Source: Muribaculaceae bacterium
GTDB taxonomy: Bacteria > Bacteroidota > Bacteroidia > Bacteroidales > Muribaculaceae
Direction: 5' to 3'
NCBI GenBank assembly: GCA_023667285.1
Contig: JAMPAK010000001.1
Location: 768,349 to 832,348, forward strand
Length of the DNA stretch: 64,000 bases
Shown: in pieces, positions 42,620 to 46,259 of the stretch
Position numbering within the stretch: the first letter of the stretch is position 1
How the letters are laid out: each line of letters opens with the position of its first letter
The notes under the pieces: generated by a model
The model's database searches: none
Seen by the model: only the letters and a program-made list of their open reading frames with translations
What the model was told of the DNA's origin: nothing
Translations under genes and position numbers: made by a program

Positions 42620-44044
42620 ATGAAAAAACTTTTACTCAGCGTCTTTGCTGCGCTCGCATGCGTGGCAACTGCCGTTGCTGATGAGGTCACCTATACTTTT
42701 ACTGGTGAGGGTGATGCCTACGGCCTGACACGCACAAGTGACTCTGGTGCGGCTTATTATATGACCGGCACAACATTGACAAATGGTGCATCGACCATTG
42801 AAATCCTCGGTAGCGGAGATTCTAATAAAGAATATGGCAATGGTGTTCGCCTTTGGACCGATGGCCTCCGCATCATGAAGAAATCAGGCCTCATCATCAA
42901 GGCCGGCGGTGTCAGCATCACAAATGTCAAGATCACAACTACCAAAAATAACGGTCCAGCAAGTTTTGATGTCAATGACAACCAATCTTTCACATCAGAA
43001 TCCGACAATACAAAAATTGGCACATGGACCGGTTCTGCCACTGAAGTTAAACTCATCAACAATGGCGATAAAGGTCTTAAAGGTACTGTTTGTGTTACAG
43101 AAATTGTTGTGACATTCGAGGCAGGTGCAACCCCCGACACCCGCAAGGCTGCAAACCTGAAGTTCCCCGAGGAGTCTTATACCATTTACTTTGGCGATCC
43201 CTTCACCGCTCCTACCCTCACAAAGGACACAAATGCTGAGGTGACATATTCGTCAGACAAGGAGACTGTAGCCACCGTCAACGCTACAACCGGCGAGGTC
43301 ACAATCGTAGGTATCGGCACTGCAAACATCACAGCCAAGGCTGAGGCCAACGATGAGTATCTCGCAGGCTCTGCTTCCTATAAACTTACTGTCGACTGGA
43401 AGGCTCCCGATGGCGCTATCTTCTCATTTGGCAAGACCGAGGAAGTGTTCTCATTCGAGAACCCCGAAGGCCTCAATGTTTGGTCATTAGACAAATCATA
43501 TGGTCTGAAGGGCACCGGATATCTGAATGGCCAGACCAACGCTGCTACAGCCGTGGCTTACACCACCGACCTCATCGACCTGACAGCCAAGAAGAACGTG
43601 AAGCTCTACTTCTCAAACGCTCTCAACAACTACAAGCTCAACAACGCTATGATCGACGTTGCTGACTTCGCAGGCAAGGGCTACGCCACCGTTGTGGCCC
43701 GCAGGCAGGGTGAGACAACCTGGACACATGTTGCCGATATCACCAACCCCACATCCTTCAGCTGGAATTTCTATGAGAACGACGCTGTGTCGCTCGACGC
43801 CTTCATGGGCACGAAGATCCAGGTGGGCTTCCAGTATATGTCGACCGCCGAGGTTGCCGGTACATGGGAAGTGCAGCATGTCTACATCATGGCTGAGGAC
43901 ACCGTAGGCATCGAGGATATCGAGGCTGCCGACGCCGAGGCTCCCGTTGAATACTACAACCTGCAGGGCATCCGCGTAGAGAATCCCACCAACGGTCTCT
44001 ACATCCGCCGCCAGGGCAACAAAGCCACCAAGGTGATTCTCTAA
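42620..44044 (+). CDS. Secreted protein with Big_2-like domain and C-terminal sorting-like motif
   Basis: A 474-residue exported protein. The signal peptide covers about residues 1-20 (MKKLLLSVFAALACVATAVA). A beta-rich N-terminal domain follows, then a bacterial Ig-like Big_2 module (VTYSSDKETVATVNATTGEV, about 200-265), then a jelly-roll/choice-of-anchor-like region. The end, YYNLQGIRVENPTNGLYI followed by a short basic tail, is of a kind seen on many secreted Prevotella and Muribaculaceae proteins and may be a sorting signal. The function is unknown. The first half has slightly lower GC than its neighbours. Confidence 0.85.
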   Translation: MKKLLLSVFAALACVATAVADEVTYTFTGEGDAYGLTRTSDSGAAYYMTGTTLTNGASTIEILGSGDSNKEYGNGVRLWTDGLRIMKKSGLIIKAGGVSITNVKITTTKNNGPASFDVNDNQSFTSESDNTKIGTWTGSATEVKLINNGDKGLKGTVCVTEIVVTFEAGATPDTRKAANLKFPEESYTIYFGDPFTAPTLTKDTNAEVTYSSDKETVATVNATTGEVTIVGIGTANITAKAEANDEYLAGSASYKLTVDWKAPDGAIFSFGKTEEVFSFENPEGLNVWSLDKSYGLKGTGYLNGQTNAATAVAYTTDLIDLTAKKNVKLYFSNALNNYKLNNAMIDVADFAGKGYATVVARRQGETTWTHVADITNPTSFSWNFYENDAVSLDAFMGTKIQVGFQYMSTAEVAGTWEVQHVYIMAEDTVGIEDIEAADAEAPVEYYNLQGIRVENPTNGLYIRRQGNKATKVIL

Positions 44045-44064
44045 ACTCATCACCTAACCACCAC

Positions 44065-44106
44065 AACACCCCCGGCCCCCACGCGAGGCCGAGGGTGTTT
44101 TTTCGT
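44065..44106 (+). terminator. Terminator after the secreted protein gene
   Basis: A 13-bp stem AACACCCCCGGCC / GGCCGAGGGTGTT with one mismatch and a short loop is followed by a run of T. A second small hairpin (CCCGAGCCTTCGGG) comes just after. Confidence 0.8.
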
Positions 44107-44179
44107 GTGTCCCGAGCCTTCGGGATTGTTATTTCGGCGCCCTGCGGACTACGATTACACGTATGTCAGCAATGTTAAA

Positions 44180-44222
44180 TTACAATAAATCTCAGAATTA
44201 AATCTAATTCTTACTGTTGTAA
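44180..44222. promoter_or_regulatory. Nested palindrome upstream of the Panacea gene, candidate operator
   Basis: An inner inverted repeat AGAATTA / TAATTCT (44194-44200, 44205-44211) sits inside an outer one, TTACAA / TTGTAA (44180-44185, 44217-44222), with almost the same centre. The outer right arm overlaps the possible -33 of the promoter, a good place for autorepression by a toxin-antitoxin pair. Confidence 0.45.
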
Positions 44223-44245
44223 TACAAAAAAATTCGCTATATTTG
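44217..44245 (+). promoter_or_regulatory. Promoter of the Panacea/GNAT-like pair
   Basis: TTG (44217-44219), 18 bp, then TATATTTG (44238-44245), which fits the -7 consensus. The Panacea ATG is 35 bp downstream. The -33 spacing is one or two bases short, so the -7 is the firmer part. Confidence 0.6.
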
Positions 44246-44280
44246 CAACGAGCGAAAACTGCGCATAAATAAAATAAGGT

Positions 44281-44766
44281 ATGATAGATGTCATTCAAGC
44301 TGCATCCTATATATATAATCGGTATCACGATCAGTTTTATAGGATTATTGATGAAATGAAGCTGCATAAACTGCTTTATTTCACTCAACGTGAATCTATT
44401 ATAGAGACTGGAGAACCCATGTTTACGGCTCAATTTGCTGCATGGAAATATGGTCCTGTTTTAGTGCAGATTCGTGAATGCTATCGTAATCAGACACTCA
44501 ATGACCCTATTGATGGCAAAGATTTGGAAAAGTATCAACCAGTGTTTGACTACGTTTTCGAAAATTATGCGAAAAAAAGCTCGTGGAGTTTAAGCATGTT
44601 ATCCCATGGAGAGGTTTCATGGCAGAGAGCACGAAAGAACACTCCTGAGGGTGAGAAATGCACGTCTCTTATCAGAGTAGAGGATATTCGGGAAGATGCC
44701 GAAAGGATTAAGACACGTCGATTCTATTTTAACGAAATTCTCCCTCAGATAAGTGCGAATAACTAA
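44281..44766 (+). CDS. Panacea-domain protein (DUF4065/SocA-like), putative antitoxin
   Basis: A 161-residue cytoplasmic protein with the Panacea pattern: DVIQAASYIYNRY at the N-terminus, then EMKLHKLLYFTQRE, then FAAWKYGPVLVQI. Panacea proteins are known antitoxins that neutralise many unrelated toxins encoded beside them, or proteolytic adaptors such as SocA. The gene has its own promoter and the next gene starts inside its last codons (14-bp overlap). Base composition is AT-rich (about one third GC in a line I counted, against over half nearby), which suggests transfer. Confidence 0.82.
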   Translation: MIDVIQAASYIYNRYHDQFYRIIDEMKLHKLLYFTQRESIIETGEPMFTAQFAAWKYGPVLVQIRECYRNQTLNDPIDGKDLEKYQPVFDYVFENYAKKSSWSLSMLSHGEVSWQRARKNTPEGEKCTSLIRVEDIREDAERIKTRRFYFNEILPQISANN

Positions 44767-45622
44767 AGAGCAGGAATCCATTCTAAATGGATTCAAATGT
44801 GTCAGAGCAAGCAGCATAGAGCCATCTCGTTTGAATTCTATCTGTGGTCCCATCATTGATGGCAAAAACAGGTCATCGTTGATTGATCATTTCCGTAATT
44901 CCAAGCATCTGGAAGATGATAGAGAGGGGGCATTGGCCTCATATGTGATTCTCAACAATAGTGGGGATGTTCTTTCGTTTTTTTCAATAAGATGTGGCGA
45001 ATTGTTTGAAAAAGTAGATCATCAAAAGATGATATTAGGTCACAATGCATTGATTGGGATGAACATATTACGTACCACTCCGGACATTTCAGAGGAAGAT
45101 CGCAATAAAGCATTACAGGCAATTGAAGATGCTCTTAATGCAGGATTAAGTATAGACGACTTTGTTTTCTATGCCGGCAAAAAACACACTTATCTGGGAG
45201 ACGTATCGAAGGAACCAAGCAGTGAGGTTAGCCGAGTATCAGTCGTTTATTCAGGTGTTGAATTGAAGTTTTTTGGAATCAATGACAATGCCAGACCATT
45301 TTGGAAAAGCCTGAACCTCCCCAGAAAAATGGGTGAAACGTTGTTCTGGCATTTCATAGTTCCTAAAATTGAAAAGTTAAGGGAAATAGTGGGGTGTCAA
45401 TATATGTATCTGTTTGCAGCTGATCAGGAGGCTGATGGGCATCTAGTGACATACTATCGCACCGTTCTACATATAGATGCACCCTCAAGATTGGCATCAA
45501 ACAAACCATATTTTGATTATAAGAGCATGTTCCTATATCAGGATATAAACCGTTTGTACGAACATAGAAGGTTGTTTTTAGATTCCTTTAATCCGGATGT
45601 CGGGGATGGAGATATTGTTTAA
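44753..45622 (+). CDS. GNAT-like protein, putative toxin partner of the Panacea antitoxin
   Basis: A 289-residue protein starting at a GTG that overlaps the Panacea stop region, so translation is coupled. The first 80 residues include ALASYVILNNSGDVLSFFSI, like the early strands of GNAT acetyltransferases. Later, ELKFFGIND, RKMGETLFWHFIVPKI (an R-x-x-G-like acetyl-CoA loop) and MYLFAADQEADGHLVTYY fit strands 4-5 and the C-terminal part. About 100 residues between these halves are an insertion. Known GNAT toxins acetylate aminoacyl-tRNA. GNAT membership and toxicity are inferences. Like the Panacea gene, it is AT-rich. Confidence 0.6.
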   Translation: MRITKEQESILNGFKCVRASSIEPSRLNSICGPIIDGKNRSSLIDHFRNSKHLEDDREGALASYVILNNSGDVLSFFSIRCGELFEKVDHQKMILGHNALIGMNILRTTPDISEEDRNKALQAIEDALNAGLSIDDFVFYAGKKHTYLGDVSKEPSSEVSRVSVVYSGVELKFFGINDNARPFWKSLNLPRKMGETLFWHFIVPKIEKLREIVGCQYMYLFAADQEADGHLVTYYRTVLHIDAPSRLASNKPYFDYKSMFLYQDINRLYEHRRLFLDSFNPDVGDGDIV

Positions 45623-45630
45623 ACAAACAA

Positions 45631-45674
45631 AGAGTCCATAACTCTGTGGGGGGGAACCACGGGTTATGGACTCT
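45631..45674. terminator. Terminator between the island and efp, probably bidirectional
   Basis: A perfect 12-bp stem, AGAGTCCATAAC / GTTATGGACTCT, with a 20-base loop. On the minus strand it is followed by TTGTTTGTTT, so it should end efp transcripts. On the plus strand the tail is weaker. Confidence 0.8.
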
Positions 45675-45695
45675 CTTAGATTGTGATAGGGGGAA

Positions 45696-46259
45696 TTATT
45701 TGACGCGCTCTACATATGAGCCGTCGCGGGTATCGACACGCACTTTGTCGCCGATATTGCAGAAGAGGGGCACGCGTATTTCGGCTCCTGTCTCGACTGT
45801 GGCGGGCTTGAGGGTGTTTGTGGCTGTATCGCCCTTGATGCCGGGCTCGGTGTAGGTAATCTCGAGCACAACGGATGTGGGCATCTCGCAGGTGAGGATT
45901 GTCTCAGACTCTGCATGCACGTTTGCCTCGCAGACGTCACCTTCCTTGAGGAACTCTACTCCCTCGATGCTCTCGCCGGGGAGGATGACCTCTTCCCAAG
46001 TCTCGGTGTGGAGGAAGTGGTAGCCCATGTCGTCCTTGTATGAGTACTGGTAGGGGCGGCGCTCGATGCGGACCTCATTGACCTTTACGCCTGAGTTCCA
46101 TGTCTTGTCGAGGATGCGGCCTGTGCGGACGTTCTTGAGTTTTGTGCGGACAAAGGCGGGGCCTTTGCCGGGTTTCACATGAAGGAATTCAACGATGAAG
46201 TAGTACTGGCCATCGATGTCGAGGCACATTCCGTTTTTAAAATCTGCAGTTGTTGCCAT
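45696..46259 (-). CDS. efp: Elongation factor P
   Basis: Rescues ribosomes stalled at polyproline. It has 187 residues with three beta-barrel domains: N-terminal KOW-like ([22 protein letters not shown]), the middle OB fold and C-terminal [18 protein letters not shown]. The tip residue in V-K-P-G-K-G is Lys, the usual modification site. IF-2 and FtsA in this window carry proline-rich tracts that would need it. Confidence 0.97.

Follow-up and report, generated by a model that had tools for sequence, protein, structure and literature searches.

The question raised by this locus is what a short AT-rich island of two overlapping genes does in the genome of a Muribaculaceae bacterium. Within the window, i.e., the whole stretch of 64,000 nucleotides that was analyzed, two open reading frames are present on the forward strand as a first-pass annotation had described them: a Panacea ORF at 44281–44766 (161 aa, ATG start) and a second ORF at 44753–45622 (289 aa, GTG start), overlapping by 14 bp. 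The cassette (44155–45675) has a GC content of 38.6%, while efp has 55.1%, the upstream gene 51.1% and the window as a whole 54.3%; the cassette is the GC minimum, as no lower 1521-bp stretch was found on sampling the window every 50 bp. The Panacea gene has a GC content of 38.7% and the second gene of 39.3%. The island is therefore indeed poor in GC compared to the window; the earlier value of about 30% is an underestimate, since only the 126 bp in front of the Panacea gene are that low (27.8%). The GC content of the pair is below that of the flanks also in 12 of 14 relative loci, by a small margin in three of these (L003, L010, L011), and not below it in L015 and L017.

Signals for a joint expression were found on both sides of the pair. 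A site at 44217–44245 (forward strand), 35 nt ahead of the start codon of Panacea, matches the pattern TTG-N18-TATATTTG, which we take to be a Bacteroidota-type promoter motif. In its strict form the pattern is present 13 times on the two strands of the window, and 9 of 14 loci have the looser pattern TT-N18-22-TANNTTTG in the 150 nt preceding Panacea, a raw count that includes the near copies L004 and L008. A sigma-70 promoter scan gave no excess (3 versus 4.8 expected), and an Rfam scan of 43900–45800 gave no match. The toxin gene and efp converge, and a hairpin in the interval (45631–45674, forward strand) is a possible terminator: the fold of 45620–45690 has −30.1 kcal/mol and a z-score of −5.7, with 0 of 200 shuffles being equally good. 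This hairpin 3′ of the toxin gene has no T-run on the forward strand and is absent from the sites of a terminator scan. One shared promoter and one shared terminator for the pair are plausible.

The identity of the first protein was confirmed. It matches PF13274 (SocA_Panacea, DUF4065) with an E-value of 2.8e-15 and 57.6 bits against a Pfam cut-off of 25.7 bits, and phrog_1281 with an E-value of 7.2e-28, and it falls short of the cut-off of the type VI SocA equivalog NF047745 (44.5 versus 190 bits). The model (pLDDT 93.7) shows a single compact domain and a long helix at the C-terminus, i.e., a stand-alone Panacea domain that is predicted to be an antitoxin. Among solved structures the model found no match at E ≤ 0.001.

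The second protein is far less obvious from its sequence. No Pfam match was found, and neither protein of the pair matches DUF1778. Over the 14 members of the toxin family (alignment A1, comprising 14 of 15 toxin loci with the broken L008 gene excluded; 275–294 residues) no Pfam family recurs consistently, the best E-value being 0.0088 and each family being matched by at most two members. PADLOC gave no match for the second protein, NCBIfam one at an E-value of 0.18, and sequence searches of the PDB one match each at E-values of 2 and 0.98 only. The acetyltransferase family phrog_1758 is matched weakly by the window protein (E 6e-4) and at E ≤ 1 by 10 of 14 members, the best at 1.3e-9. Comparison of the family profile with compact GNATs by hhalign was also weak, with a probability of 25% for the whole profile, 77% for the N-terminal and 6% for the C-terminal part.

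The structure is more informative. In the AlphaFold2 model of the 289-residue protein (pLDDT 82.2) a GNAT fold is seen that carries three extra helices between β3 and β4. The top 18 entries of VIA-align (Z 14.5–16.8) are TacT, TacT2, TacT3, AtaT, AtaTR, AtaT2, KacT, GmvT and the ‘bacterial toxin’ 7byy, and the entry following these is another GNAT with a Z of 12.7. The first 15 rows of Foldseek contain the same GNAT toxins, with E-values from 8.5e-7 to 1.1e-4 and TM-scores of 0.40–0.45 by query length and 0.64–0.77 by target length; other GNATs are mixed in thereafter. Viral structure models gave one match at E ≤ 0.001, a 138-aa phage acetyltransferase. The acetyltransferase fold on which the first-pass annotation had staked its reading was thus found by both methods, and in the model this fold is closest to the AtaT/TacT group of toxins, so that the gene at 44753–45622 is predicted to encode a divergent GNAT toxin.

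The two GNAT halves had been described as separated by roughly 100 residues. Fold and insertion are both present in the model; the insertion is shorter, with 73 residues (codons 88–160, 45014–45232, forward strand, from DSSP of the model) in the window protein and 61–82 across the 14 members. Its helices cover residues 90–108, 114–129 and 134–150, flanked by β3 (73–87) and β4 (162–176). No other stretch of the protein is as variable as the insert, whose pairwise identity is 0.22 compared to 0.41 in each flanking part. This fast-evolving insert is the best candidate for contacting Panacea or for the choice of tRNA. For three tacAT paralogues a helix of the toxin is described to insulate the systems from each other by its presence and size (in the text available of PMC10305079), and by analogy the three-helix insert may have a similar job.

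The predicted active site of the toxin family looks partly kept and partly changed. The loop of GNATs that binds the cofactor has the motif (Q/R)-x-x-G-x-G/A, and AtaT (6gts) carries it as Q-G-Q-G-W-G. In the window protein the corresponding acetyl-CoA pyrophosphate loop is degenerate and reads LPRKMG (codons 189–194, 45317–45334, forward strand; placed by family alignment and hhalign). The last glycine of the motif alone is kept: G194 is invariant in 14 of 14 members, and the positions of the first Q/R and the first G are not conserved. Hhalign pairs G194 with the last loop glycine of the compact GNATs, with a weak score and a probability of 6%. As the loop retains only this glycine, the binding of acetyl-CoA is not assured. 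Spacings relative to AtaT, counted by eye on the alignments, point in both directions. From the end of β4 to the loop glycine the window protein is eight residues longer than AtaT, and a short helix is placed there. From the invariant glycine after the next helix to the alanine of the following strand (G214 and A222) the spacing is 8 in AtaT and in the family. The catalytic tyrosine is Y144 in AtaT and Y145 in KacT according to the titles of the PDB entries. In the family Y235 is invariant in 14 of 14 members and follows the strand alanine by 13 residues compared to 9 for the tyrosine of AtaT. Lying four residues further from the preceding alanine than the catalytic tyrosine of AtaT, Y235 is of uncertain role. 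Taken together, the active site may be kept in part, with the G214–A222 spacing as in AtaT, and changed in part, with a different loop and a different spacing of Y235.

Next to the fold, the association of the two genes was followed across genomes. A single-sequence search over 397 genomes from the same bacterial family found the toxin gene in 14, spread over 8 of 30 genera with the own genome counted, and in samples of the genus (27 genomes), the order (295) and the phylum (395) the own genome was the sole match. An additional locus (L017) lies on a 100-kb contig labeled Lachnospiraceae, and L016 and L003 are one and the same contig. Panacea is located directly upstream and on the same strand in 14 of 15 toxin loci. 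In the fifteenth (L009) the contig ends 97 bases upstream of the toxin start, and another contig of this genome (L117) opens with the 3′ end of a Panacea gene, which belongs to the same subgroup (score 163.6 bits). Homologues of the toxin that stand apart from Panacea were not seen where upstream DNA was present. The distance between the two genes varies between −17 and +14 nt in the 14 loci for which it was measured, so the overlap of 14 bp, from which translational coupling had been proposed, holds for the window and is not constant. Of the 397 genomes from the bacterial family, 101 carry a Panacea gene of any kind, which shows that the pairing with a GNAT is one of several Panacea pairings there. 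The profile of the Panacea subgroup (A2) was run over 50 Panacea loci (L086–L135; the 30 best and 20 hand-picked from a longer list, two genes being present twice) and scored 211 bits for L116, 164 for L117 and 77 for the next; the toxin profile matched over the same loci only a remnant in L116. Distances between the Panacea proteins and between the toxins correlate in a mirror test (r 0.95, 0 of 5000 permutations, 13 pairs), which shows shared descent and not contact. The partnership of Panacea and toxin is real and conserved as a two-gene unit.

Close homologues of the toxin were not found in phages and plasmids (tblastn) or in viral contigs, where the search relied on short conserved stretches and returned pattern candidates and no relative; the members L014 and L006 as queries gave no match in phages either. 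Genes of the phage and plasmid loci L019–L023 were rejected as relatives, since none matches A1 better than an E-value of 0.25. The annotated partners of Panacea in these loci are MazF-like in L019 and L021, and none stands directly beside Panacea in L020 and L022; L023 carries no annotation. By the same value the Panacea partner on a Parabacteroides plasmid (L024) was rejected; in this locus (L024:2447-3650) the Panacea gene overlaps a hypothetical gene, unrelated and annotated with 251 codons, which is a further unassigned partner of Panacea in Bacteroidota.

Several comparisons indicate that the island is horizontally mobile. In L047, from the same genus, the pair is absent, and flanks that are 75% and 82% identical lie 239 bp apart compared to 1648 bp; L047 is the only one of the 26 other genomes of the genus that has both flanks in the loci retrieved, which reached 1.5 kb beyond efp. 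Two loci from two genera (L080:7463-10420 and L081:5896-8855) share a block of 2,966 bp with 89% identity, in which a tyrosine-recombinase-type gene accompanies the toxin and Panacea genes. No similar surroundings of this block were found and no clear terminal repeats were seen; the 3-kb block is possibly a minimal mobile element. In L017 (L017:5520-6882) the GC content is low around the pair and the Bacteroidota promoter pattern is missing, a context that suggests transfer between phyla if the Lachnospiraceae label is right.

Moreover, decay is one-sided and hits the toxin gene in two loci. In L116 (1111-1724, reverse strand) a full Panacea frame stands next to a toxin frame cut to 59 codons, about 53 of them corresponding to the N-terminus of the toxin. 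In L008 (1492-2369, reverse strand) the toxin frame is split into two ORFs with the upstream Panacea intact, and this break is possibly real decay or an assembly error. An intact toxin with a broken Panacea was not seen, in a search that, save for the 50 Panacea loci, started from the toxin. Both genes are under purifying selection between the window and L016, a relative with 70% identity: Panacea has a dN of 0.11 and a dS of 1.55, and the toxin has a dN of 0.20 with a dS that is not computable and identities of 76%, 84% and 43% at codon positions 1, 2 and 3.

Among described systems, the closest in gene content is VcaA-VcaT of Varibaculum cambriense, a DUF4065-GNAT pair of clade C for which toxicity, neutralization and acetylation of mainly Gly-tRNA are reported (in the part of PMC9177977 that treats it). 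It resembles the window pair in a DUF4065 gene adjoining a GNAT toxin gene and differs in the host lineage. The pairing of Panacea with a GNAT is therefore already known, and the idea that it is unprecedented has to be dropped. What this locus adds, judged against toxins of the AtaT/TacT group, is a divergent toxin subfamily with a helical insert and a loop retaining only the last glycine. The toxins AtaT, TacT, KacT and GmvT share the fold and give the best structural scores; however, their chains have about 150–196 residues compared to 275–294 here and by their length lack such a helical insert, and AtaT has a full Q-x-x-G-x-G loop, unlike the window toxin family. The antitoxin of the AtaT/TacT group is a DUF1778 ribbon-helix-helix protein, as given in PMC9177977, whereas the partner in the window is Panacea. 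Panacea antitoxins occur with many toxins in the PanA-PanT systems, which, like the window pair, combine Panacea and a toxin in a two-gene unit, with a stand-alone Panacea in some (as far as presented in the accessible text of PMC8832971 and PMC10440598). The main texts of these two papers, as distinct from their supplementary tables, contain no words beginning with GNAT or acetyl. The 281-aa Panacea partner toxFtsL of Gelidibacter was rejected as a relative: its description in PMC10440598, as far as available, gives GAF and FtsL-like parts, predicted membrane helices and no GNAT fold. The compact phrog_1758 GNATs of the same bacterial family (L025–L044) are distant sequence kin of the window toxin; they are shorter (frames mostly 170–223 aa) and often have a more canonical loop, e.g., G-Q-G-L-G. 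Their best PDB matches (alignment A3, 17 of 20 loci) are AtaT2, AtaT, TacT3, GmvT and KacT, and the window Panacea subgroup has no match in the 20 loci. No title or abstract was found that describes this toxin subfamily, in a search that covered few subscription journals and preprints. In the accessible text of two further papers, a gut metagenome insert carries a DUF4065 gene with GNAT genes elsewhere in the clone (PMC3861447), and a Serratia phage carries a DUF4065 gene (PMC7556043).

We consider it rather probable that the island is a mobile toxin-antitoxin module in which Panacea neutralizes a GNAT toxin that probably acetylates aminoacyl-tRNA. The toxin-antitoxin role, one of two that the first-pass annotation had named, is the best reading. 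The module would be a horizontally mobile pair with the antitoxin encoded first, and the toxin would be a divergent member of the AtaT/TacT group. It would most likely take an acetyl group from acetyl-CoA and place it on the amino group of charged tRNA, by which translation would stop. Panacea, carrying no extra neutralizing domain, would most likely bind the toxin directly and thereby keep it inactive. Loss or remodeling of Panacea, perhaps by phage infection or by loss of the element, would set the toxin free. The acetylation of tRNA is the most likely mechanism, weakened by the altered cofactor loop.

This loop opens the way to a toxin that has the GNAT fold within a toxin-antitoxin module and acts on another substrate such as a protein, a polyamine or a small molecule, uses another acyl donor or works by binding, with the insert serving target recognition. 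The degeneration of the loop in all aligned members and the variability of the insert speak for it, as does PacT, a GNAT toxin that also binds Fur (described so in the text available of PMC9561280). However, every one of the top structural matches is a GNAT toxin from the tRNA-acetylating group, and the invariance of G194, Y235 and the alanine of the preceding strand suggests a kept active site, so that we hold this alternative to be unlikely. It is doubtful as well that the rebuilt loop and the helical domain mark a toxin subfamily whose substrate, donor or neutralization lies outside the described tRNA acetylation, with Panacea contacted via the insert. A more radical alternative denies the toxin-antitoxin character and assumes an acetyltransferase that is not toxic and is accompanied by a regulator or adaptor protein of the Panacea type. 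The toxicity of the second protein is a prediction, and metabolic enzymes are common among GNATs; against this stand the strict pairing with a domain that is mainly known from antitoxins, the one-sided decay in two loci, the mobility and the placement within the toxin subgroup of the fold, which make this alternative very improbable.

Compatible with the toxin-antitoxin module is a biological role in abortive infection against phages, in which Panacea would be the sensor and the GNAT the effector. The authors of PMC10440598 favor Panacea as a sensor in the text accessible, and the low-GC cassette and the patchy distribution agree with such a role. The neighborhood gives little support to the defense role that had been proposed alongside the toxin-antitoxin reading. 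When 97 neighbor proteins were pooled (97 of 145 listed ORFs; left out were the genes of the pair itself, the whole of L074 as a near copy of L078, and some small or edge ORFs), 47 PADLOC families were matched, and among the matches listed RT_UG29, a reverse-transcriptase defense model, hits one neighbor with an E-value of 1e-42. Scanned individually, 4 of 30 neighbor proteins matched. One is clear, the AbiLi-type ATPase gene of L085 (2058-4033, forward strand; E 4.2e-72), which is separated from the toxin gene by about 3.5 kb; those in L084, L080 and L017 were judged to be general ATPase matches or weak domain matches. A gene of 218 codons follows the AbiLi-type ATPase gene. However, 26 of the 30 neighbors gave no PADLOC match, and the direct neighbors include ordinary genes, i.e., a GHL10 hydrolase, a permease, a D-Tyr-tRNA deacylase and a glycosyltransferase. 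We regard abortive infection as possible, on the unlikely side. The D-Tyr-tRNA deacylase gene (L083:1533-1982) lies directly downstream of one copy of the pair, which is probably chance; both concern charged tRNA.

The locus extends the pairing of Panacea and GNAT, of which one tested pair was found in print, to a gut lineage, taken to be Bacteroidales, whose predicted toxin is strongly altered. Provided that this toxin is active, the family would be a natural test of how much change of the GNAT core, i.e., the loss of the loop motif and the insertion of helices, is compatible with the acetylation of tRNA. Under the same premise it would likewise allow a test of how a single antitoxin domain is able to neutralize unrelated toxins.
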